Source: Aminiphilus circumscriptus DSM 16581
GTDB taxonomy: Bacteria; Synergistota; Synergistia; Synergistales; Aminiphilaceae
Assembly: GCF_000526375.1 (NCBI RefSeq)
Contig: NZ_JAFY01000002.1
Location: 868,001 to 932,000, forward strand
Length of the DNA: 64,000 nucleotides
Direction of reading: 5' to 3'
Shown piece by piece: positions 8,347-63,685 of the stretch. The notes under the pieces were generated by a model. It was not told where the DNA came from. It worked only from the letters and a program-made list of their open reading frames with translations, and did not search any database. Position 1 is the stretch's first letter; each line of letters starts with the position of its first letter. The position numbers and the translations under genes are program-made.

Positions 8347-10662
8347 TCAGTGGGGCGTCGCTTCTTCCGTTTCGCGTTCTTCCGAGGTGGAAGGGGACGG
8401 AGGCTCCTTCCGCGCCTCCGCGGAGGGTGCCTTTCCGTCGCCGAGTTCGAGAACCACGAGGTCGCCGCTCCGGAAGACCGCGTTTCCAAGGGTGGCAAGC
8501 CCTTCCTCGTCGAGCTTGGGAAAACGCTTTCGCTCCGCCGCGCCCACCACGATGTAGCGAATGCCGTAGTGGGAAAGAAGCGCCTGGGCTTCCCCGCTCT
8601 TCGGCGCCTCGTAGATGGCGCGGACCTCCCGGGACCGGCGGTTCGGAAGGTTCGCGTCGTTCCGCCAGAGCCATTCGTGGGCGTGCCATCCGAGGATGGT
8701 GGGGAGCCCCGTGGCCATGGAGATGCGCCCGAAATCGCTGTAGCTCTCGCCGTCCGCCTCCAGAATGGGAACCTGGCCCGTCACGGTTTCGTTGAACCAG
8801 GCGATGGCGGCCCGGTCGTCCTTGGCGCGGAAATTCATGAAATCCAGGCCGTCCAGCCCTTTCCAGGCTTCCCTGGCGGGGTAGTAGGTGCCCACGGCCT
8901 TGGGAAAATAGAGCAGGGGAAGAAGCACCATGAAATAGAAGAACACGGCGAGTCCCTTGCGGAACAAAAGCCTTCGGGGCAGCTCCGCGAGGCGTACCAT
9001 GACGTATCCCGAGGCGATTCCCAAGAGGATGAAGGCCTGGTAGCCGAGCTTGAACATGGTGTTCGCCCGATGGTAGTCCGGGCCGTAGATGTCCTTCACG
9101 TACACCAGCTCCGGAATGGCCACCAGGCCGATCCCCGCCAGGCAGAGCGCCCCCGCGAAGAGATCCCCCGGCGAGAGAGCCCGCCACCAGAGGACGAACC
9201 CCCTTGCCGGTCCGCGCCGTTTCATGCAGCGCCCGAGGAGAAAGAAGACGAAGCCCAGAAAGAGGGTTGCCGTGAGGAGTTTGTCTCCCCACAGGATGAG
9301 GAGTTGCCATGGCAGCGACCGGGACAGAACGGGAAAAATTCCCTTCACGAAGCTCTGGAAACGGAGCAAAAACGGCAGTGCCACCAAAAGCGACAGCGCT
9401 CCCGTGGCGAGGAGTGCTCCCGTACCCCCCGCGAGGGCGCGGAAGAACCGCCCCTTTCGTCGCCAGAGCCAGACGAAGGTGATGCCGCCGAAGAGCGCCG
9501 TGTGCACGGGGAAATCCCAGGAGTTCGTCATCTGCATGATCCCCACGAGAAATCCTCCCAGGGCGAGCCGGTCCGCCGAAGGCCCTCGTGCCGCCGTGGT
9601 GAGGAGGACTCCCAGTGAAGTCAGTGTCACGGGAATGTCCGACACGTGCCCGTGCAGATCCGCCACCACGAAGGAGTAGAGGGGAAATTCGTGAATGGTC
9701 TTGTCCTTGGCGGGAGGAAAATATCCGATATACCTTGTCGCGTCGGGATACCAGTAGCTCTTGGTCGGGCCCGCGTACACTCCCTGGTTTTTGAGAAAGG
9801 GAAGGGCATGTCCGTGGACGAAGCCGTGGAGGTTGCCTCCGCAGGCGACGAGGAGCGCCGCGATGGTTCCCGCGGCAAGATTTTTCAGGAATGCACTCTT
9901 GTCCGTCGCTGCGGCGGAGCGGACGAAACGGGAACGCCGCACCAGGGAGACGGCGGCCCATCCGAGGGAGAAGGCGAGTGTGACGGTCTGGCCGAAGAGC
10001 GTCGCGAGCATGAGGTTATAGGCCACCTGAGGCGCCACTCCCGTGAGGGTGGTGAGGAAGGCGCAGAGGTAATGTCCGAAATAGTAGTAGTTGATGGGCT
10101 CTCCCGCGAGCCACATGTCTGTGGGGGGCATGGTACCGCTTCGGAGGGCGGCGTTCACGAAGCCGAAATCCATGAATTTTTCCAGGCCGTGGATGGAGGG
10201 CTGGAATCCCCGCACCCAGGCCCAGAAAAGAAAAGCCGCGAGAAAGAGCAGTTCTGAAAAGAGAACCTGTTTCCAGGAAACCACTTTCTCCCCATCGCTT
10301 GTCGGAAGAACCGTCTTCGCGATGTGTTCCGGAGTTTCACCGCGTCGGCCGTGTTGCCACAGGAGGAACAGCGCCCCGAGCAGCGCGACGAGAGCCGTGC
10401 TCCCCAGGACGGAGGTACGGCCGAAGGAGGCGATTCCGAGCGCCGCGGCAAGCCAGCTCAGGTAGCCGGCGAAAAGAATTCCCAGAGCTTTGGCGAAGGG
10501 CCACGCACCGTCCCGGAAGACGGGAAGAAGGCGTTGGGCGAAAGGTGCCGCGGCGAGGGTCAGGAAAAGAAGTGCCACCCACCATCGGAGCGCAAGGAAG
10601 AAGAAGGGGGATTCGAGAAAGACGATCCCCTGCCGGAAAAGATGGGGAGCGTAGTCGATCAC
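8347..10662 (-). CDS. DUF2298 (YYY-motif) membrane protein
   Basis: A 771-aa membrane protein with many helices. The stretch PINYYYFGHYLCAFLTTLTG in the N-terminal half is the tyrosine-rich signature of DUF2298 proteins, a family described from Chloroflexi and archaea and thought to be GT-C-like. A C-terminal soluble domain contains HYGIRYIVVGAAERK. The start is GTG at 10662, overlapping the stop of the upstream flavoprotein gene in a GTGA arrangement, so translation is coupled. Its role in glycan transfer is inferred from neighbours. Confidence 0.75.
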   Translation of the reverse strand: MIDYAPHLFRQGIVFLESPFFFLALRWWVALLFLTLAAAPFAQRLLPVFRDGAWPFAKALGILFAGYLSWLAAALGIASFGRTSVLGSTALVALLGALFLLWQHGRRGETPEHIAKTVLPTSDGEKVVSWKQVLFSELLFLAAFLFWAWVRGFQPSIHGLEKFMDFGFVNAALRSGTMPPTDMWLAGEPINYYYFGHYLCAFLTTLTGVAPQVAYNLMLATLFGQTVTLAFSLGWAAVSLVRRSRFVRSAAATDKSAFLKNLAAGTIAALLVACGGNLHGFVHGHALPFLKNQGVYAGPTKSYWYPDATRYIGYFPPAKDKTIHEFPLYSFVVADLHGHVSDIPVTLTSLGVLLTTAARGPSADRLALGGFLVGIMQMTNSWDFPVHTALFGGITFVWLWRRKGRFFRALAGGTGALLATGALSLLVALPFLLRFQSFVKGIFPVLSRSLPWQLLILWGDKLLTATLFLGFVFFLLGRCMKRRGPARGFVLWWRALSPGDLFAGALCLAGIGLVAIPELVYVKDIYGPDYHRANTMFKLGYQAFILLGIASGYVMVRLAELPRRLLFRKGLAVFFYFMVLLPLLYFPKAVGTYYPAREAWKGLDGLDFMNFRAKDDRAAIAWFNETVTGQVPILEADGESYSDFGRISMATGLPTILGWHAHEWLWRNDANLPNRRSREVRAIYEAPKSGEAQALLSHYGIRYIVVGAAERKRFPKLDEEGLATLGNAVFRSGDLVVLELGDGKAPSAEARKEPPSPSTSEERETEEATPH

Positions 10663-51173: not shown

Positions 51174-53212
51174 ATGATGGCCGATGCAAGACAATCGTCA
51201 GAGATGGCGGAAAATTCCTCCCGAGCGGCAACCGGGACGATGGAGCCGGAAGCGCGGGAGATTCTCGAAGAAAAAGCGCTGGAGGAAAAAGCCGAGCGCG
51301 TTCTCGAAAAAGTCGAAGCGGAATCACGGTTCCGCCGCTACACGGGCAAGTGGGCACTCGCGGTTTCCGTCGTGGCCGTGGCCATGTCCTGTTTCCATCT
51401 CTACACGTCGGGATTCGGCGTACTCATGGCCATGAAACAGCGCAGCATCCACCTTGCGTTTCTGTTCGTGCTGACTTTTCTGCTCTATCCAGGGTCAAAG
51501 AATGCGCCGAAAAAGCGCCCCTCCGTGATGGACATGCTCTGGCTGGCCGTTTCCGTTTCGTCGGCACTGTACATCACGTTCATGTTCGATGCCTTCAGCA
51601 TCCGCGGTTCCGCCGTTCTGTCCGACTACGTCATGGGGACCGTCCTCATCGTCTGCATCCTCGAAGCGACGCGGCGGTCCGTGGGAAAGGAACTCATGCT
51701 GTTGGCCATCGTCTTTCTCCTCTATGGCTTTTTCGGGGACTACATCCCCGGTGTGTTGGGGCATACGGGTTTCACCTTCAAGCGCATCATCTATCAATTG
51801 TACCTGTCGTCGGAGGGAATCTTCGGTGTTGCCCTGGGCGTCTCCTCCACGTACATCTTTCTGTTCATCCTTTTCGGCGCCTTTCTCAACGCCACGGGGA
51901 TGGGGCAGTTCATCAAGGATATCTCTCTCACCTTGGCGGGGCGTACCATCGGCGGTGAGGCGAAGGTGGCCATCATCGCCAGCGGGCTCATGGGCATGAT
52001 CAACGGCAGTGCCGTGGGCAACGTGGCCGCCACGGGAACGTTCACGATTCCTCTGATGGTGCAGAAGGGATTCCGCCCTGTCTTTTCCGCGGCGGTGGTG
52101 GCCGTGGCGGGAACGGGAGGCATGATCTGCCCCCCGTCATGGGCGCGGCGTCGTTCATCATGGCGGAGTTCCTGGGAATCCATTACGCCAAGATCATGCT
52201 CGCTGCCGCCATTCCTGCCGTGCTCTACTACCTGGCGGAATATGCGGTGGTCCACATCGAGGCAGTGCGGCTGGGGATGCGCAAGCTCTCCGCCGAGGAA
52301 ATTCCCAGCCCGTGGAAAGTCCTGCGCGAGCGGGGTCAGCTTCTCGTTCCCATCGTGGTGATCGTCTATCTGCTTCTCGTGGGACGCACGCCTCTCTACG
52401 CGGCGTTTTACGGCATCGTAACCTCCGTGGCGGTGAGTTTCCTCAGCAAAGCCACCCGCATGTCCCTGAAGACCTTCCTTGGCGCGCTGGAACAGGGAGC
52501 CCGGGGAGCTGTTGCGGTGGGCATGGCCTGCGCGGTGGTGGGCAACGTCATCGGCGTGGTGAACCTCACGGGGCTCGGACTGGTTCTCGGGGACAACATC
52601 GTCTCCCTCGCGGGAGGCAACGTGCTTTTCACGGTCTTTCTCACCATGGTGGTGAGCGTCATCCTTGGCATGGGGCTGCCCACCACGGCATGCTACATCG
52701 TCACCGCCACCATCGCGGCCCCCGCCCTGCTGCAGCTCGGCGTGGAACCCCTGGCGGCCCACATGTTCGTCTACTATTTCGCCTGTCTCTCCAATGTGAC
52801 GCCCCCCGTTGCCATCGCCTCCTACGGTGCGGCGGGTATTTCGAACCAGAAACCCGCCGAGGTGGGATGGACGGGGTTCCGTATTTCCCTCGCAGCCTTT
52901 CTTATTCCCTTCACCTTCGTGTACAATCCGCAGCTCCTTCTCGTCGGGGGCAACGCCGTCTCCATTGCCATGGCCACCGGGACGAGCATTGTCGGTGTGA
53001 TCGCCCTCGCGGCGTCGCTCCAGAACTTTCTCCTCGCACCCCTTTCGCTGCTCCAGCGGGCCATGCTCTTTACTGGGGCGGTGTTGCTCATCTTCCCAGG
53101 GATCGAGACCGACGCGGCGGGGACGATTCTCGCCATTGCGGTCTGGCTCTGGCAGCGCCGGAATGTTTCCCGGGGAAGGAGTGCGCCGGAGGGCATTCCC
53201 GTCGAGGGATAA
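51174..53212 (+). pseudogene. Fused TRAP permease (DctQM-type 4TM-12TM), frameshifted
   Basis: Encodes the membrane part of the TAXI-TRAP transporter, about 679 aa if intact: a charged N terminus, a 4-helix DctQ-like part and a DctM-like part with GLMGMINGSAVGNVAATGTF and GMGLPTTACYIVTATIAAPA. The reading frame breaks in a run of six C (52130-52135). Before it the protein reads GTGGMICPP and continues out of frame to a stop at 52361; after it the sequence MGAASFIMAEFLG resumes one frame over to 53212. Restoring one C gives a continuous family sequence. It is either a recent single-base deletion or a sequencing error. Confidence 0.85.
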
Positions 53213-53414
53213 CGGGTCAATGGCGCGGCAAATGTGTATACGTGTATAAATGAGTACAATGGAAGGAGCGACACTCCTTCGAGGTGCGGTGATGCTGAAG
53301 AAATTCGACACCGCGCTTCGAAGGGTTTTCAGGCTGCGAGAAACACTGTTTGAGGAGGGGCTCCGAAGGTGCTGTATTTCTTACGGTCGAGTCGGAAGAA
53401 AGGGGCGATGGTGT

Positions 53415-55429
53415 GTGCGGATCGGCGCGAAACTGACAGGCGCTTTTGCCGCGGTGACGCTCGTGTGTGCCGTGGTGGGATTTCTCGGATCCTTCGGTAT
53501 CCAGCGGACGGCCGGGCAGGTGGAGGACATGGCGGAGGTGCGCCTGCCCCGTGTTCGCTGCCTTCTCCTGCTTCAGGAAAGCCAGCAAGGTATTCGGGCG
53601 GCGGAGCGGAGCCTCTTGAACCTCGCCGCATCGGCGGACGAACGCCGCCGGGCTTACCAGGACCTGGAGATCCAACGGAAGAAGACCGGGGAGAATCTGG
53701 AGACGCTTGCAGCTCTTCTGGGGCGCGCCACCGAGGAAGACGCGCTCTTTCAGGCTTTTCGCAGCGCCGAGGCGGAACGCACCAAGGGGATCGAGGATTT
53801 CCTTACCCTGTCCGGGAAACTCGACGAGACGGGCATTGGCAATCCCGCGGCGTTCGAGGCGGAACTTGCCGTTCTCGAGGTGGCTCATCAGAAATGGCTC
53901 CTGGACCTGAGCCGGGCGGTCATGACGGAAATGCCCTTCCGCGGCAACGTGGATGCGGCGGAAAGTGCCATGGGGAAATGGCTTGCCTCCTTCAGTGTGA
54001 AGAACCCCGCACTGGTGGATCTCTTCGGACCGCGCATCCTTGAACAATACAAGATTCTTTATGCTGCGGCGGAGGGCATTCGGGAACAGCTTAACAGGGA
54101 CGACATCACCGACGAAGACATGGGCGACATCCGCTTCGCTTTCGCCTATGAATGTCTTCCTGCGGCGGATGCCATCGGGGATATCTTCGACCGGGCGCGG
54201 AAGATCGTGGGCGATGCGGTGGCGATCCAGAATGTGATGAACAAACAGGTGCTCGAAACGAACGGTGCAGCCTTCGATACCGCGATTGCCGCGCTGGATG
54301 CTCTTGTGAGCGCCGAGCTACAGGCGGTGGATGCCGCGAGGGTGGAGGCGGCTGCGGTTTCTTCCGGAGCGGGGCGTCTCGTTTTTGTGGGCATTGCCGT
54401 GGGTGCCGGACTCTCCATCCTGCTGGGATTTCTTCTCACTCGGAGCATTACGAGACGGCTGGGACGTGTCATGGCATGGCTCTGGCGAACCGTGTAAGAG
54501 AGAAGGATCTCTCCGCAACAGCGGATGCGGAGGGCGCAGCGGGGAGCGATGAACTGGGCGACCTGAGCCGGACCTTTGGCGACATGACGCTTTCCCTTCG
54601 GGACATCGTGTCGGGTATCGCCGTTGAGGCGGACGAGGCGGGGGGACGTTCCGAGGCCTTGGCTGCCCTTGCCATGGATGCGGTGACCGAGATGGTCCGG
54701 AACGCTTCCGTGTCCCTGGCCGGTACGGTGAAGGAGATGCACGCCCTCGAGGAACGGAACCGCGCGATCGTCGGTCATATGGAGCGCCTCGACGGGGCCG
54801 TGGCGGAAGTCTCTTCCTTCGTAACCACCATCACGGGGATTGCGGACCAGACAAACCTTCTGGCCCTGAACGCCGCCATCGAGGCGGCCAGGGCAGGGGA
54901 GGCGGGACGCGGTTTCGCCGTTGTCGCCGAGGAAGTGCGGAAGCTCGCCGAGGAATCCGCCCAGGCGGCCAAGCGGGTGCAGGATCTCATCGGCTCCCTG
55001 GGAACATCCGCCAAGACCTCTGTTGCCGCCACGGGAGAAATGGCGGAGGTTCTCAAGAGAACCCTGGCGGATTCCGCCGCATCAGGAGAGCGGCTCGATC
55101 TCTCGATGGAACGCATCATCCGCACGAGCGACCTGATTCGGAACATGGCTGCCGCTGCGGCGGAACAGTCCGCAGCCAGCAGTGAGATGACCGAGGCTCT
55201 CGGTGCGGTGACCCGTTCCACCGAGGCCATGGTGGAAGCCATCCGGGGCATCGAACGTGCCTCGGAGGAGACCGCGGCGGCGGCGGAGAGTGTTGCCACC
55301 GAATCCCAAGCGCTGGCGGAAAGCTCGGGGCGAATGACCGCCCACGTCTCTCAGTTCCGCCTTACCGGGGTGGAGGCACCTCGCGTCGCGCTGCCGGGTG
55401 GCAAGAGGAACGACGTGCGGACAGCGTGA
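53415..55429 (+). pseudogene. Methyl-accepting chemotaxis protein, frameshifted in the HAMP region
   Basis: A transmembrane chemoreceptor: helix 1 (AFAAVTLVCAVVGFLGSFGI), a periplasmic helical sensor of about 280 residues, helix 2 ([19 protein letters not shown]), HAMP, then a signalling domain with [18 protein letters not shown]. The first frame ends at 54497 shortly after [12 protein letters not shown]. The HAMP continues one frame over ([20 protein letters not shown]) and runs to 55429. The shift lies near 54470-54485. The GTG at 53415 is the likely start, with an open extension to 53250. Either a decayed gene or a base-calling error. Confidence 0.8.
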
Positions 55430-55438
55430 GTTCGTGTC

Positions 55439-56143
55439 TCATCCGTCCGGAGCTTCCTCCGAATACGCCTCGACCGATGCGATGTTGCCGATGATGTAGA
55501 GTCTGGAATAGATGCGGGGGAAAAAATTGAGGCACATCAGTTCGGAGTAGATGGATCCGATCCTGCCGGGGTAGACGTTCAGATTGTAGTGGATGCCGTC
55601 GTGCATGAAGCCGGTCGCGAGTTCGGGCAACTCGTTGAGAAGGTATCGGGAAAGCGTTTCGATTGCGTCCTCGTCGAGACGGCTGACGATGCTCCCGAGA
55701 TTTTTTTTCGTTATCGCGATGAGCGCGTTTCTGAAGTCGTCATTCTCGGCGTATTCTTCCTTGAAGATCTGGAGGTTGTGGCAGAAAAAAGGGTCGTAGA
55801 CGATGTCCGTCCAGTCGAGGAGAACGATCTTTTCGGAGAGTTGCGGGGGAAGCGCCGACATGGCCTGATCGCACAGGAGGCGCACCTCCTCCGCTTTCCG
55901 GAAGGCCTTGTCGATTGCCGAAATCGGCTTGCTCCTGTCGAAGACAAGGTTGTTGATATGCTGAATGATGTCGACGATCACGATGGCTACGCGTTCCTTT
56001 GTTCGCACGGCGGCCCATGCCATGAAGTCGTACAGATATTCCCTCGTGAATTTTTTGTTATTGATGCTGATGCCGAGGTAGGGGTTCCACCTTCGGGATT
56101 CGATGTGTTCGAGAGTGGTATTGAAGAGCGAAGCGATTCGCAT
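55439..56143 (-). CDS. tRNA-dependent cyclodipeptide synthase (CDPS)
   Basis: CDPSs take two aminoacyl-tRNAs and release a cyclic dipeptide (2,5-diketopiperazine). This 234-aa protein fits: YLGISINNKKF holds the nucleophile Ser26, and YLLNE gives Y167 and E171. V-Y-P gives Y191-P192. The spacings Ser-Tyr 141, Tyr-Glu 4 and Tyr-Tyr 24 equal those of AlbC (S37, Y178, E182, Y202). The YP pair suggests the XYP subfamily. ATG at 56143 follows GGAGGTGAGG and gives the usual length. It is last in a minus-strand group with a GNAT and an NTF2-like gene. The product dipeptide cannot be predicted. Confidence 0.82.
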   Translation of the reverse strand: MRIASLFNTTLEHIESRRWNPYLGISINNKKFTREYLYDFMAWAAVRTKERVAIVIVDIIQHINNLVFDRSKPISAIDKAFRKAEEVRLLCDQAMSALPPQLSEKIVLLDWTDIVYDPFFCHNLQIFKEEYAENDDFRNALIAITKKNLGSIVSRLDEDAIETLSRYLLNELPELATGFMHDGIHYNLNVYPGRIGSIYSELMCLNFFPRIYSRLYIIGNIASVEAYSEEAPDG

Positions 56144-56282
56144 TGCCCTCACCTCCGGCTTTTCGGTTGGCGAAACGAATTCTTCGTCGGAGTGTCCGTC
56201 GAACGGGAAACGGTAGGTTCTCGCCGGGCACGCCTCATCCTCATCATGGGTTTCGCGCACGGAGTTCGGATGGGACGGTCTC

Positions 56283-56738
56283 TTAAGAGGAGGTGTCGAA
56301 GTCCATTCCCAGCAAAAGGTACTCCGTCGAAAGCCCATGACGCTGGTAAAAACTGCGCGCTCTTTCGTTTGCCTGCATGACTCCCACTTCAATCTCGTCC
56401 ATGCTGTGTTCTCTGGCCCTGCCGACGGCATATTTCAGCAAGGAGGCGCCTGCGTTTCTGCCCCTGTGTTTTTCGGAGACGATCAGTTCGTTGATGAGGA
56501 CTGTGCCGTTTCTGTGGTACAGGCTTCGGTAGAACAGGAGCGAAAGAAATCCGATTACCTCGTCCTCGTGCTCGCACACGTAGTTTTCGTATGTTTCGTC
56601 CTGTGCGTCCATGTTCGCGAAGTGACGCCGCAGGTCGTTTTCGTCGAGGGGACGGTCCTCTCCGAGGGCTGTGCTGAGTTCCTCAAGGAGCAATGCTACG
56701 CGAGGCAGGTCCGCTTCGATCATTTTTCTGACGCGCAT
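56283..56738 (-). CDS. GNAT-family N-acetyltransferase
   Basis: A 151-aa GNAT acetyltransferase: MRVRKMIEADLPRVALLLEE opens the fold, and ELIVSEKHRGRNAGASLL holds the acetyl-CoA-binding Q/RxxGxG/A loop. VMQANERARSFYQRHGL is motif B. The start at 56738 has GGAGG 6 bases upstream; an alternative ATG at 56822 overlaps the NTF2-like stop (ATGA) but lacks a ribosome site. 139 bp separate it from the CDPS gene. It may acetylate the cyclodipeptide or a precursor (inference). Confidence 0.83.
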   Translation of the reverse strand: MRVRKMIEADLPRVALLLEELSTALGEDRPLDENDLRRHFANMDAQDETYENYVCEHEDEVIGFLSLLFYRSLYHRNGTVLINELIVSEKHRGRNAGASLLKYAVGRAREHSMDEIEVGVMQANERARSFYQRHGLSTEYLLLGMDFDTSS

Positions 56739-56818
56739 GTTTGCCTCCACGGTGATCAGGTCTCCCGTGCGTTTTTCGATATGTACTCTCCGGGGGATTC
56801 TTTCTGTCGAGTTCCGGT

Positions 56819-57187
56819 TCATGTCCGTTCTTTGGGGATCGGAAAGTTCTGTTGTCTGCAAAAGGTCAGCCTGTCCCAGCAACCTCGCTGAAAAACGATT
56901 TTCGAATCGACGATCCGGAAAAAAACACACCCCCGCAGCCCCAGAGGGTCGCGCCATTCCATGATTGCCCATTTTCCATCCTTGAACATGTTTTCGACGA
57001 TACAGGTCATGTTTGCGGCGGCGAAACCGTCCGTGAACATTTTTCGGATGGCCTCGCGCCCCTTGATGGGGTCTCCTGCCGCGACCTGGTGGTTGACGGT
57101 GTCATCGCTGTACAGGTTAGCCAGGGAATCCGGGTCCGCGTTGTTGAATGCCTCCACGAATTTTTGCAACACATATTTAGGGGTCAT
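56819..57187 (-). CDS. NTF2/SnoaL-like small protein
   Basis: A 122-aa cone-fold protein of the NTF2/SnoaL-like superfamily: TPKYVLQKFVEAFNNADPDS, LYSDDTVNHQVAAGDPIKG, then GREAIRKMFTDGF and MEWRDPLGLRGCVFFRI. Members are small-molecule isomerases, cyclases or binding proteins. The start at 57187 follows AGGAGA; an ATG at 57214 is possible. First gene of the group that ends in the CDPS, so a tailoring or binding role is conceivable. Confidence 0.75.
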   Translation of the reverse strand: MTPKYVLQKFVEAFNNADPDSLANLYSDDTVNHQVAAGDPIKGREAIRKMFTDGFAAANMTCIVENMFKDGKWAIMEWRDPLGLRGCVFFRIVDSKIVFQRGCWDRLTFCRQQNFPIPKERT

Positions 57188-57861: not shown

Positions 57862-59427
57862 ATGCGTCAGGGAGACGAGTTGCGCATCGTGGTGCCCGAT
57901 TCCATTGAGTATCTTGCTCCACTTCAGCGGCTGGTGGATGAGCTGGCCGCGAAGATCGGTTTTGAAGAAATGGCCCGGAGAGAGATACAGCTCGGTTTCG
58001 AGGAGGCGTTCGTAAATGTGGTGGAACACGCCTTCGATCCCGGCGAACAGGCCTCTTTCGAGGTATGCCTTCGGGCGGTTCCTTTGGGGATGGAGGTCGT
58101 GGTGCACGACGAGGGGCTTCCCTTCGACCCCGGCCTGGTGCCGGAGTACGCTCCGGAACATCTCAAGGCAGGAACACTTTCCGAGGGACAGGGAGAAGGC
58201 GGACTCGGCATCTTCCTCATGCGGCACCTCATGGACGAGGCGACCTTCGTCAACCTCGGAAGAAAGGGAAAGGAAACCAGACTGATCAAGTATCTGCCGA
58301 GAAAATCCGTGCAAGAACTCTCGCATGGAGAGGAATTGGCCGCCTGGGAGATGCCCGTCGAGGAAAAAACCGCAGTCTCCGTCTCGCCGCCGGAGCGGAT
58401 CGCCTATTCCATCCGTCTTCTCGAACCTCGGGACGCGGTGGAGGTGGCTCGTTGCGCCTACCGGGCCTATGGATATTCCTACCCGAACCCTCACATCTTC
58501 TTTCCCGACCGGGTGGTTGACCTGAACGCCCGAGGAAGCCTCGTCTCCGCCCTTGCGGTGACCCCGGAGGGGGACATCATGGGCCATGCCGCGCTTGAGG
58601 TGCCTTCCGACGACCCCGGGGCCCCCGTCGAGATCGGCATGGCTTTCGTGAAACCTGCTTATCGAGGGCAGGGGTGTCTGCATGATCTGACCACCTTTCT
58701 TCTTGACGAGGCGCGCCAGAGAGGATTTGGCGGAGCGTACGTCCAGTCCGTGACCACCCATCCGGCTTCCCAGAAGGCGGGCCGTTCCGTGGGATTTCGC
58801 GAGTGCGGACTCTTCGTCGGTGCCTACCCCGAGACCATGAATTTCAAGAAGCTCGGTGGCGAGGTGGGGCAACGCCTGAGTCTGGTTCTGGCCTTCCTGC
58901 CGCTGGTTGTCTTTCCCGCTGAAACACTGCACTGTCCTCTGCGGCACCGGCGCATGCTCGAGCGCCTTTTCGTGGAACTGGACATGCACCCGCGCATGGT
59001 TTTTCCACGTGGTCTGCGCCCGGAGCTGCCCCCGGGACAGGGCGAAATGCGCGTGTCCGTCACGGAGACGACGGCGACGGCGGAGATCAACCTCGTTGCT
59101 TTCGGAATGGAGACGAAAGCGGCGGTACAGGCGGTGGTGCGGCAGCTTTGCCGAAAAAAAATCGAGTTCATCTCCCTGCGGCTTCCTCTCAGAGATCCTA
59201 CGACTCCCTTCTTCTGCGACGTCCTGGAGGAAGAGGGATTTTTCTTCGCCGGAGTTCTTCCCCACGCTTCCCGGGGGCCTTTTCTTCTTTTGCAGTACCT
59301 GAACAATCAGATCATCGACTACGGCAGAATCAGGATTGCCTCGGACGTTGCGGGAGAACTGCTGGCCTACGTTCGCTCCTGCGATCCCGGTGAGGACGTG
59401 CCGTCGCCTTCCGCTGGAAACGCCTGA
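57862..59427 (+). CDS. HATPase (anti-sigma-kinase-like) fused to GNAT
   Basis: A 521-aa two-domain protein. Residues 1-150 form a GHKL ATPase of the RsbW/SpoIIAB type: N-box LGFEEAFVNVVEHAF (about 44-58), VVHDEGLPFDP and the G-loop GEGGLGIFLMRHL (about 111-123). From about 180 to 340 is a GNAT domain with EIGMAFVKPAYRGQG. The remaining C-terminal part contains FCDVLEEEGFFFAGV and may be a second GNAT-like fold. ATG at 57862 follows TAGGAGG. It heads the acyl-reduction group; regulation or acetylation of those enzymes is possible. Confidence 0.78.
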   Translation: MRQGDELRIVVPDSIEYLAPLQRLVDELAAKIGFEEMARREIQLGFEEAFVNVVEHAFDPGEQASFEVCLRAVPLGMEVVVHDEGLPFDPGLVPEYAPEHLKAGTLSEGQGEGGLGIFLMRHLMDEATFVNLGRKGKETRLIKYLPRKSVQELSHGEELAAWEMPVEEKTAVSVSPPERIAYSIRLLEPRDAVEVARCAYRAYGYSYPNPHIFFPDRVVDLNARGSLVSALAVTPEGDIMGHAALEVPSDDPGAPVEIGMAFVKPAYRGQGCLHDLTTFLLDEARQRGFGGAYVQSVTTHPASQKAGRSVGFRECGLFVGAYPETMNFKKLGGEVGQRLSLVLAFLPLVVFPAETLHCPLRHRRMLERLFVELDMHPRMVFPRGLRPELPPGQGEMRVSVTETTATAEINLVAFGMETKAAVQAVVRQLCRKKIEFISLRLPLRDPTTPFFCDVLEEEGFFFAGVLPHASRGPFLLLQYLNNQIIDYGRIRIASDVAGELLAYVRSCDPGEDVPSPSAGNA

Positions 59428-59542
59428 AATGTCTGTTGCCGGAGAGCGCGTGGTGGTGCTCCGTGCCTCGCCTTTCAGCGGGTGAGCCGGCGGGGCAATG
59501 TGTTGTGCGCCGCTATAACGGGTATTGCGAGGAGGAATGGCT

Positions 59543-60835
59543 ATGGCGCGATGTATGGGATGTATGGAACGCCCCGAGGAGGACGCTTCCCGGAAGCGGA
59601 AGCACGGAGAGGATGCCGTTGAAATGCCTGAAGAAACAGGAAAGGATGGACTGAGAGCGTTCACCCCCGGGAACGGCGCAGAGTACGAGCGTGACGGAGG
59701 GCTTTTCCCCGTCGCGGATGCCCTCTGTTCCCTCGAGGACGCCTTTGCTTTTTCTCCGGAGAGGGATTCGCTTTTTACGGAGGCACTTTTCGAGAATTAC
59801 CGGTACCAGTACGAGCGACACCCCTTTCTGCGCTTTCTTGCGGTCCGCGGCGGGTTTTCTCCGGAACGGGCGAAAGCCTCGGGAGACATCTACGACATTC
59901 CCCCCCTTTTCGTGGGAACGCTCAAGCTCCATCGTTTCTGCTCCGTTCCGGACGAGGAGGTTGTCCTAACGCTCACCAGTTCGGGGACGAGTGGTCAGAA
60001 AACACAGCTTTTGCTGGACACGCCCTCTCTCGCCAGGCTTGAGGCGCTCTCCCGGTCTGTCTTCCGGGGGCTCGGTTTTGAGAGTACCGAACCTGTGCAC
60101 TATCTGCTCTTCGGCTACGAACGGGAGCACGCCGGAGCGGTGGGAACGAGCTGGAGCACCGAACAGAAGATGGTCTGTGCTCCGGCCAAGACCGTGTCCT
60201 GGCTTATCCGATGGGACGATGCCTCGCAGGAGTTCGAGTTCGACGCCGTTGCCGCGGCCCGGCGCATTGCCGAATTGGCCGAGGACGCGCCGCTCCGGTT
60301 TCTCGGCTTTCCCGCCTTCATGTACCGTGCGGTGGAAGAGCTGCGGAAGATCGCTCCCGGACTCCGGGTCGATCCCCGGAGCTTCGTCATCGCCGGAGGC
60401 GGATGGAAGAACTACGCGGGAGTTCCCCTGAGCCAGGAGGTATTTGCCCGTTTCCTCGAGGAATCCCTGGGGCTGCCGAGGGAGAACGTGCGGGACGTGT
60501 TCGGCATGGCGGAGCACGGTGTTCCCTATGGAGCGTGCCGCTATGGGCATCATCACGTACCCATCTTCGGGCGGCTCTCCGTCCGGGATCCCAGAACGCT
60601 GGAGGTGCTTCCTCCCGGTGTCGAGGGGCTCTTGCATCTGCTCACTCCCTACAACACCGCCCAGCCGAACTGCTCTCTTCTTGCCACCGACGTGGCCCGC
60701 CTCGAGGAGGACTGCCCCTGTGGTCTTCCCGGAACATACATCGCTTCGGTCCGGCGGGGAGGTACGTCCAAGCACAAGGGATGCGCCATCGCGGCTCAGG
60801 AGATCCTGGATCGCATGGCTCGTACGGGCGCGTGA
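59543..60835 (+). CDS. LuxE-like acyl-protein synthetase
   Basis: A 430-aa adenylate-forming enzyme of the LuxE family, which activates a carboxylic acid as acyl-AMP and passes it to a cysteine for reduction by LuxC. The AMP-binding P-loop LTSSGTSGQKTQLLLD lies near residue 143. FVIAGGGWKNY and DVFGMAEHGVPYGACRYG are later family motifs. The N-terminal 35 residues are Cys-, Lys- and Glu-rich. ATG at 59543 has GGAGGA at 6 bases; an ATG at 59537 abuts that site. The LuxC-type gene follows after 135 bp. Confidence 0.85.
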   Translation: MARCMGCMERPEEDASRKRKHGEDAVEMPEETGKDGLRAFTPGNGAEYERDGGLFPVADALCSLEDAFAFSPERDSLFTEALFENYRYQYERHPFLRFLAVRGGFSPERAKASGDIYDIPPLFVGTLKLHRFCSVPDEEVVLTLTSSGTSGQKTQLLLDTPSLARLEALSRSVFRGLGFESTEPVHYLLFGYEREHAGAVGTSWSTEQKMVCAPAKTVSWLIRWDDASQEFEFDAVAAARRIAELAEDAPLRFLGFPAFMYRAVEELRKIAPGLRVDPRSFVIAGGGWKNYAGVPLSQEVFARFLEESLGLPRENVRDVFGMAEHGVPYGACRYGHHHVPIFGRLSVRDPRTLEVLPPGVEGLLHLLTPYNTAQPNCSLLATDVARLEEDCPCGLPGTYIASVRRGGTSKHKGCAIAAQEILDRMARTGA

Positions 60836-60970
60836 GCGGAGGCATTCCTGCCCGGTGTTTCATGGATGGCTCGATGTGGGCACCGGTGTTTCGCCGTCGG
60901 GTTCCCTGTTCCGCGGTGCTGCATAGACCGTGAGAGTTCCGACAAAGACGAAATGTGAGGAGAGAGGATC

Positions 60971-63685
60971 ATGGAAGCGACCCAGCGCCACTACTTGTTC
61001 GGTGAGTTTCTCGAGCTGCCCCAGGACCTGCCCGAGGCGACGGCGGCCCGATTTTTCAATGAGACGTTTCTGGCGGAACGATCCCGTGCCTTCGCGGCGG
61101 TTCCCGTGGACGATGTGCTTGGAGTGCTGCACCGCACGGGAAGGTTGCTCGTCGATCCCAAAGGTTCCTATCGCAGGCGCATTCTGGAGAACATGCCCGC
61201 CGTGACGGGCTATTCCCCGGCGCTCGTGGAGAAGGGTGTGGAGGTACTGGGGACGCTGCTCTCCCGGACGTTTCTCCAGGAGCGCCTCTCTTGTCTTGGG
61301 AACTACCGGGCGCTGGACTGTTTCGTCCCCTGGGGGCGGGGGAAGCTCTCCCGGGCGGTTCCGCTTGGGGCGGTCTGTCACGTCGCCGCGGGAAACATCT
61401 TCCTCGGCTCCGTGGATTCCCTCGTGCTCGGCATTTCGACGAAGAACGTGAATGTTCTCAAGATCTCCCGCCAGGATCCGCTTTTCCCGTTTCTTTTTCT
61501 CGAGGCACTTCTCGAAGCCGATCCGAAGGGGCTGGTTGCGCCCTACCTGGCTGTCACGTCCTGGAGCAGGCGCAATGCGGCGGTCGTGTCCCTCGTGAAG
61601 CGGGTTTTCGACGGCATTCTGCTTTTCGGCGGCGAGGATGCCGTGCGGGAATACAAGAAGGACCTCGCTCCGAAGACGCAGCTTCTCGCCTTCGGTCCGA
61701 AGATCAGTTTCGGCGTCGTGACGGAAGGGCTCGACGACGAGGAACTCCGGGAGGCCGCGAAGGGGTTCGCCCTCGATGTCACGCTCTGGGAGCAGAGAGC
61801 CTGCACGAGTTGCCAGAATGTCTTCGTGGAGGATGCCGGAGCGGACGCATCGGATCTCTTCGGGGACGACTCCTCCTACGTGGTGCGTTTTTCCCGCTAT
61901 TTCGCGGACGCCCTGGCGGAGCAGGCGAAGGTCTTTCCGCCCGGAAGGGCGGAGCTGGACGAGCTGGTGGAGATCCGCAAGGAACGGGAACTGGCTGCGT
62001 GGAAAAGCTTTCAGGGGAAGGCGCGGTTGTTCGAGGTCGCCGGCGGTGACGCTACGGTGATTCTCCAGGAGGGGGCGGACGTGGTGCCCTCTCCGCTCAA
62101 CCGGACGGTCTACGTGAACCGTGTGCGGCGGCTCGAGGATGTGACTGAAGGCAATCTCCGCGTCATGGGTTACTACATGTCCACCGTGGGTCTTGCGGCG
62201 CCGGAGGAGCGGCTGCAAAGTTCTCTGGAGGCCATGCTCGGTCTGGGCGTGCTCCGTTTCTGTCGTCCCGGCACGATGGGTCTCGGTGCCGATCCGTCCG
62301 CGCCTCACGACGGCGTTTTCATTCCTCTGCAGCTCGTGCGCTTCGTGAACCGGGAGGACATCTCCCCGGATCTGCTCGGCCAGGATTTCCTCTTTCGGGA
62401 GAGCCGGGACCGGGAGCTGCTCGCCCGGATCAACGCCATTCTGGAGACCGCCACGGCGAGTCCCTTCTATCGGGAGCGCTATGCTTCGCGTGCGCTTTCT
62501 CTTCCTCTCGCATCACTCGACGACCTGAAAAACGTTCCCTTTCTCGAAAAGGCGGACCTGGCGGCCCATTGCCCTCCCTTCGACATGACCATGCTCACCC
62601 GGGAGCCCCGGGGAGCCTATTTCTTCGCCTCCGGAGGAACTTCGGGAAAACCTCGCTATGTCGCATGGTCCGCTGAGGAGTTTGACCTTGCGGGACATCT
62701 CACGGGGCGGGGATTTCGGATGCTTGGGATCGGCCCGGAGGACACGGTGGCGAATCTCCTCCGGGCGGGGGCGCTCTGGACGGGATTTCTCGCCTTCGAT
62801 CGGGCGCTCGAGGAGACGGGGTGCCGCATTCTCTCCATGACCTACAACCAAAGTGACGAGGAAACCCTGGAGATGCTCGCCACGTTTCGCCCCACGGCGA
62901 TCATGGCCATGTCCAGTGCCCTCGTCTCTCTCGCGGAGGCGGTGGAGCGAACGGGCTGGAGCGGTTCGGTGCCGAAGGTTTTCTTTACGGGAGAGCCTCT
63001 TCCCGAGTCGGCCCGGGAGTACGTGTCGCGGCTCTTCCGGAGCGAGTGCATCGCCTCGCCGCTCTATGGCGCCGTGGAGATCGGTCCCATGGGATACCAG
63101 TGTCCCCACTGCAGCCCCACGGAATTCCACGTCACCGATGAATGGTGTTACATGGAACTTATGGAGGACGGAGAAATCGTGGCCACCACACTAGAGAGGC
63201 ACCTTCACCCTCTGATCCGCTATCGTCTTGGAGACCGGGCGGAGTGGGTCGCGGGGGCATGTGCATGCGGCTCCCGGTCACCCCGGTTCCGCCTTCTCGG
63301 CAGGACCGACGACTACGTGCGGGTTCACTTCGGAAAACTGTATCTGGAGGAGGTCGCCCAGGCACTTCGCGCCTTTCCGGAGCTCTCCTCGGATTTTCAG
63401 ATCGTTGTGGACCCGTTGGGAGAGCGTGCTCGGGTGACCTTCACCGTGGAAAGCCTTCCGGGACGCCTTTCCGGGCTTCCCAGGACTCAGGAGTCCAGGG
63501 ATACGAGGGATACGGTGGAACTGGAGCGGCGCATCTGCGACGCCATCATTGCCAAGGCGAAGGTCTACGCGGATCCGCGCAATCTCAAGCTCGAGGAACT
63601 GGTAGCTCGGGTCGTTCCGCCCCAGTCCATTCCCCGGGTGGAGCGCACGGGGAAAATCCGTCGTATCGTGGACAGAAGGGTTTAA
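60971..63685 (+). CDS. LuxC acyl reductase fused to PaaK-like adenylate-forming domain
   Basis: A 904-aa fusion. The N-terminal 470 residues match LuxC, an NADPH-dependent acyl reductase producing aldehydes: GAVCHVAAGNIFLGS (about 133-147) and WEQRACTSCQNVFVE, with probable catalytic Cys278. The C-terminal 420 residues are a PaaK/phenylacetate-CoA-ligase-like adenylating domain: ASGGTSGKPRYVAWS (about 553), YGAVEIGPMGYQCPHC and RYRLGDRAEW, then GRTDDYVRVHFGKLYLEEV. ATG at 60971 follows GAGGAGAGAGG. With the upstream LuxE-like gene it could activate an acid twice or use two substrates. Confidence 0.88.
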   Translation: MEATQRHYLFGEFLELPQDLPEATAARFFNETFLAERSRAFAAVPVDDVLGVLHRTGRLLVDPKGSYRRRILENMPAVTGYSPALVEKGVEVLGTLLSRTFLQERLSCLGNYRALDCFVPWGRGKLSRAVPLGAVCHVAAGNIFLGSVDSLVLGISTKNVNVLKISRQDPLFPFLFLEALLEADPKGLVAPYLAVTSWSRRNAAVVSLVKRVFDGILLFGGEDAVREYKKDLAPKTQLLAFGPKISFGVVTEGLDDEELREAAKGFALDVTLWEQRACTSCQNVFVEDAGADASDLFGDDSSYVVRFSRYFADALAEQAKVFPPGRAELDELVEIRKERELAAWKSFQGKARLFEVAGGDATVILQEGADVVPSPLNRTVYVNRVRRLEDVTEGNLRVMGYYMSTVGLAAPEERLQSSLEAMLGLGVLRFCRPGTMGLGADPSAPHDGVFIPLQLVRFVNREDISPDLLGQDFLFRESRDRELLARINAILETATASPFYRERYASRALSLPLASLDDLKNVPFLEKADLAAHCPPFDMTMLTREPRGAYFFASGGTSGKPRYVAWSAEEFDLAGHLTGRGFRMLGIGPEDTVANLLRAGALWTGFLAFDRALEETGCRILSMTYNQSDEETLEMLATFRPTAIMAMSSALVSLAEAVERTGWSGSVPKVFFTGEPLPESAREYVSRLFRSECIASPLYGAVEIGPMGYQCPHCSPTEFHVTDEWCYMELMEDGEIVATTLERHLHPLIRYRLGDRAEWVAGACACGSRSPRFRLLGRTDDYVRVHFGKLYLEEVAQALRAFPELSSDFQIVVDPLGERARVTFTVESLPGRLSGLPRTQESRDTRDTVELERRICDAIIAKAKVYADPRNLKLEELVARVVPPQSIPRVERTGKIRRIVDRRV

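Follow-up and report, generated by a model that had tools for sequence, protein, structure and literature searches.

Cyclodipeptide synthases (CDPSs) build a small ring from two amino acids that they take off charged tRNAs. The XYP subfamily of these enzymes is defined by Tyr202 followed by Pro203 (AlbC numbering), instead of His203, and in ParcuCDPS from Parcubacteria RAAC4_OD1_1 (PDB 7QB8), which makes cyclo(His-Pro) and cyclo(His-Glu), mutants of S26, D58, Y167 or E171 have reduced or no activity, and E174 is considered to direct histidine into pocket P1 (PMC7613923). An XYP enzyme from Aminiphilus circumscriptus, CDPS 92, was one of 42 sequences expressed in E. coli in 2018; according to the main text of that paper no cyclodipeptide was detected, and for XYP enzymes without activity its authors suggest that the tRNAs of E. 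coli do not suit them or that their start codons were mis-called, and in the same main text we found no discussion of the gene neighbourhood of CDPS 92 (PMC5816076). Around CDPSs in general, N-acetyltransferases and sulfotransferases are reported to be the commonest biosynthetic domains within 2.5 kb, based on 721 CDPS clusters (PMC5767969), and a GNAT-fold gene adjoining the CDPS of Rickettsiella grylli was reported in 2010 (PMC2922099).

The window, the whole stretch of 64,000 nucleotides analysed here, comes from the genome of A. circumscriptus and contains on its minus strand the genes of a SnoaL-like protein, a GNAT-family acetyltransferase and a 234-aa protein (Table 1). The host belongs to the Synergistota, in the same genus as Synergistaceae bacterium UBA5560, so that an earlier note, written from the letters of the window, was right to take it for an anaerobe. 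We hold with considerable confidence that the gene encodes a working XYP-type CDPS, that its clade is small, horizontally spread and often lost, and that GNAT and SnoaL are no obligate tailoring set.

Table 1. Features of the CDPS locus (positions in the window).
Feature	Position	Strand	Basis
XYP-subfamily cyclodipeptide synthase, 234 aa	55439..56143	-	S26, D58, Y167, E171, Y191-P192
Shine-Dalgarno sequence GGAGGTGAG, directly upstream of the CDPS ATG	56144..56156	-	read from sequence
GNAT-family N-acetyltransferase, 151 aa, upstream of CDPS	56283..56738	-	PF00583, 1.8e-16
SnoaL-like (NTF2 fold) protein, 122 aa, upstream of CDPS	56819..57187	-	SnoaL_2, 4e-15

The 234-aa product, whose start was set at M1 by the position of the Shine-Dalgarno sequence, is a genuine CDPS of the known XYP subfamily. 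It scores above the curated cut-offs of both Pfam PF16715 (42.7 bits, E 7e-11; cut-off 27) and NCBIfam TIGR04539 (61.1 bits; cut-off 45), and its closest solved relative in the PDB is ParcuCDPS (E 9e-14 with the single protein sequence), whose entries are reached at 5e-27, best in a mutant entry, by a profile built from six clade members. The protein carries S26, N29, Y167, E171, Y191 and P192, the distances from the serine to the first tyrosine (141), the glutamate (145) and the second tyrosine (165) equal the S37/Y178/E182/Y202 spacings of AlbC, and S26, D58, Y167, E171 and Y191 are invariant in the alignment of the six clade members. Tyr191-Pro192 is the Tyr-Pro pair of the XYP subfamily. 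Asn29 occupies AlbC position 40, where ParcuCDPS likewise aligns an Asn; X denotes a non-conserved residue and Asn is permitted, and given this residue the XYP placement relies on the Pro203 equivalent and the kinship to ParcuCDPS. Foldseek, run on an AlphaFold2 model whose confidence is moderate (pLDDT 66, pTM 0.60, from a three-row alignment), ranked CDPS crystal structures highest, AlbC (3oqv) among them (E 5e-8 to 5e-6, TM 0.5-0.65), in agreement with a predicted class-I aaRS-like Rossmann fold. The CDPS assignment of the earlier note, which had named Ser26, Tyr167, Glu171 and Tyr191-Pro192 with AlbC-like spacing, is therefore upheld by the profiles, the complete catalytic set and the structure comparison.

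Exactly one CDPS is present in the host genome. The window CDPS is therefore very probably CDPS 92, likewise an XYP enzyme of A. circumscriptus, and hence would already have been catalogued and assayed without a product. The suggestion that the family is little explored in anaerobes is weakened accordingly, an A. circumscriptus CDPS having been assayed in 2018 as described in the main text of PMC5816076.

Judged by sequence matches, the clade of the window CDPS is small and patchily distributed over Synergistota, Desulfovibrionia and Verrucomicrobia. Its nearest members are L006 of Desulfonatronum (63% identity), L038 of genome G218, probably Pseudodesulfovibrio aespoeensis (63%), L007 of a Spartobacteria MAG (61%) and, from the same phylum as the window, L011 of the Synergistota genus g30 (55%), which contributes L012 as a second copy; further Desulfovibrionia relatives are L039 (40%), L040 (44% across half the length) and the remnant L041. 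CDPS profile matches occur in 3 of 188 Synergistota genomes, to which the broken copy of the sister species G001 has to be added, in 5 of 347 genomes in the class of L006 and in 1 of 346 in that of L007. The 61-63% identity and the patchy distribution point to horizontal transfer of the clade between phyla, as our preferred explanation has it. For Aminiphilus in particular such a transfer is no more than suggested, since a tree test did not reject the grouping of the two Synergistota copies as one clade (p-AU 0.18). No CDPS relatives were found in phage records and IMG/VR, and a plasmid search returned only one distant Streptomyces match (21%). The G+C contents of the CDPS (53%), GNAT (55%) and SnoaL (53%) genes are below that of the window (61%). 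The third-position G+C of the CDPS gene (75%) is ordinary, however, and we do not take the low overall values as evidence that the genes are foreign.

By analogy with AlbC and ParcuCDPS, Ser26, oriented by Asp58, would accept, in pocket P1, the aminoacyl group that the first aminoacyl-tRNA delivers, the substrate amine would be dealt with by Glu171 and Tyr167, another aminoacyl-tRNA would donate the second residue, and Tyr191 would help ring closure to a 2,5-diketopiperazine. The P1 residues, located via ParcuCDPS and mapped by hand, are Y22, G24, V55, L109, W111, E174, L175 and N189 (YGVLWELN) and are identical in five core copies (window, L006, L007, L038 and L011), whereas the pocket of L039 differs (YGLVWEFC). 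The pocket comparison covers P1, the alignment around P2 being ambiguous. In Table 2 of PMC5816076 no motif equals YGVLWELN, and its W-E-L part is found in that table only in ParcuCDPS. The two enzymes are about 23% identical in the fold match, number S26, D58, Y167, E171 and Y191 identically and have W111, E174 and L175 of P1 in common, but Y55 and Y189 of ParcuCDPS are V55 and N189 in the window, and Y22, G24 and L109 differ as well, so that the ParcuCDPS substrate is not transferable to the window CDPS. From the invariant Glu174 and Asn189 and the role of E174 in ParcuCDPS, our best guess, and only a guess, is that the first residue of the product might be polar or basic, for example histidine. 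We give a low probability to the combined reading in which this horizontally spread and repeatedly lost group, an XYP specificity group with YGVLWELN conserved across the three phyla, makes a cyclodipeptide that no CDPS has been reported to make and whose first residue is polar or basic, and in which the GNAT acetylates the product in Aminiphilus.

Of the ten clade loci that we found, five are broken. The CDPS of L005, in the sister species G001, is dead, with a deletion at the YLGIS strand, stops, a frameshift and Y191S; G001 is a MAG and its frameshifts might partly be assembly error. In L006 a TAA stands at codon 5 after a Shine-Dalgarno sequence and ATG, and the adjacent downstream TTG is a possible start. 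L012 has frameshifts and missing segments between an intact transporter and an intact kynureninase, the L040 CDPS (9014-10488, +; single-contig Desulfovibrionia genome) ends after residue 135, its C-terminal half being gone and a transposase gene beginning about 50 nt further on, and of L041 only the final 25-28 residues remain. L007, L011 and L038 are intact, as is L039 (genome G417), where a flagged TGA is the gene's own stop codon. The assemblies behind L005, L006, L007, L011 and L012 are drafts; L038, L040 and L041 are on long single contigs.

The window copy itself is under purifying selection and not decaying: it differs from the G001 CDPS in 33 amino acids, and the outgroups have the residue of the window copy in 26 of these cases and that of G001 in 3 (binomial p 1.5e-5). 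This constraint relative to the dead sister copy, together with the catalytic and P1 residues that are all invariant across the core copies, makes it very unlikely that the proteins have kept the fold but lost cyclodipeptide synthesis, or act on aminoacyl-tRNA in another way, in a clade that is dying out, as could be read from the broken loci and from the missing product of CDPS 92, the probable same protein, in E. coli (main text of PMC5816076).

On the minus strand the gene order is SnoaL, GNAT, CDPS; the genes are spaced 80 and 139 nt apart, and a good Shine-Dalgarno sequence stands ahead of each; a promoter and terminator scan of this region yielded nothing above chance. From strand and spacing, the three genes may be co-transcribed in Aminiphilus. 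The neighbours are indeed an acetyltransferase and an NTF2-like protein, as the earlier note had described them, but the proposal of a dedicated and unusual tailoring set is not supported, since N-acetyltransferases are reported as the commonest biosynthetic domains near CDPSs (see above) and the pair is uncoupled from the CDPS. The GNAT is present in 2 of the 188 Synergistota genomes, both of the genus, and beside one of them the CDPS is dead: in G001 the GNAT is intact (85% identity, Ka/Ks 0.26), and so is SnoaL (91% identity, Ka/Ks 0.61 from few changes). Outside the genus the GNAT did not recur beside the CDPS in related genomes, and neither GNAT nor SnoaL was found in the fetched flanks of L006 (cut just upstream of the CDPS), L007, L011, L012, L038, L039 and L040. 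SnoaL homologues of 58-62% identity occur in three Synergistota genomes with no CDPS match. Partners that related genomes do not conserve, named in the earlier note as what would refute the proposal, are thus largely what was found.

A dedicated three-gene pathway could nevertheless be imagined. Its CDPS product would be a diketopiperazine whose side chain offers a free amine, imidazole or hydroxyl; the GNAT would acetylate this product, either to tailor it or for self-protection, and the SnoaL-like protein would bind or isomerise it. The common strand, the short gaps and the order retained in the sister species would fit this, as would the frequency of N-acetyltransferases next to CDPSs (PMC5767969), a different NTF2-fold gene (DUF4440) downstream of the CDPS in L039, and the acidic P1 residue, which would suit a basic, acetylatable residue. 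The NTF2-like protein of L039 is, however, remote from the window SnoaL (24% over 70 aa), and with both partners unseen in the seven fetched flanks, both retained in G001 although the CDPS is dead, and SnoaL present in three genomes without a CDPS, we regard such a pathway as unlikely. GNAT and SnoaL are better read as no obligate tailoring set.

The settings of the relatives differ from that of the window. The g30 copies lie in an operon of TAXI receptor, TRAP permease, CDPS and kynureninase (L011, 6685-12395, -; L012, 6188-11381, +). L038 is accompanied by a flavodoxin/ferredoxin protein and folC-selA-...-selB-like genes, with no GNAT or SnoaL; for the Desulfovibrio aespoeensis CDPS, work of 2010 gave a Mur ligase and a SelA-like protein as partners (PMC2922099), and in L038 (9927-16640, +) these genes resemble folC, selA and, further on, selB, and so would be housekeeping genes and no peptide pathway. 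In L039 (8306-12679, -) the CDPS stands last after several polyamine-type genes, among them one of the deoxyhypusine synthase family and one of the agmatine deiminase type, and the DUF4440 gene is next, and the CDPS of L007 is adjoined by a mechanosensitive channel gene. Within the window, next to the CDPS, a TAXI-TRAP permease (51174-53212, +) is split by a frameshift from a 1-nt deletion near 52128 and a chemotaxis receptor (53250-55429, +) by one from a 5-nt insertion near 54470, each of which may be genuine or a sequencing error; both genes are intact in G001, where the CDPS is broken, the reverse of the window. Three consecutive genes of the window at 57862-63685 (+) resemble a lux set and show an unusual fusion: they encode an RsbW-like ATPase-GNAT fusion (521 aa), a LuxE-type acyl-protein synthetase (436 aa) and a protein that joins a LuxC acyl-CoA reductase to a PaaK-like CoA ligase (904 aa).

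In summary, the enzyme assignment stands and the partner claim does not. The new element is a modest one, a small and defined clade of CDPSs in anaerobes whose core members have one common P1 pocket. It gives grounds to retest the enzyme found inactive in 2018, either with charged tRNAs of its own host or by way of an intact homologue from a sulfate reducer.
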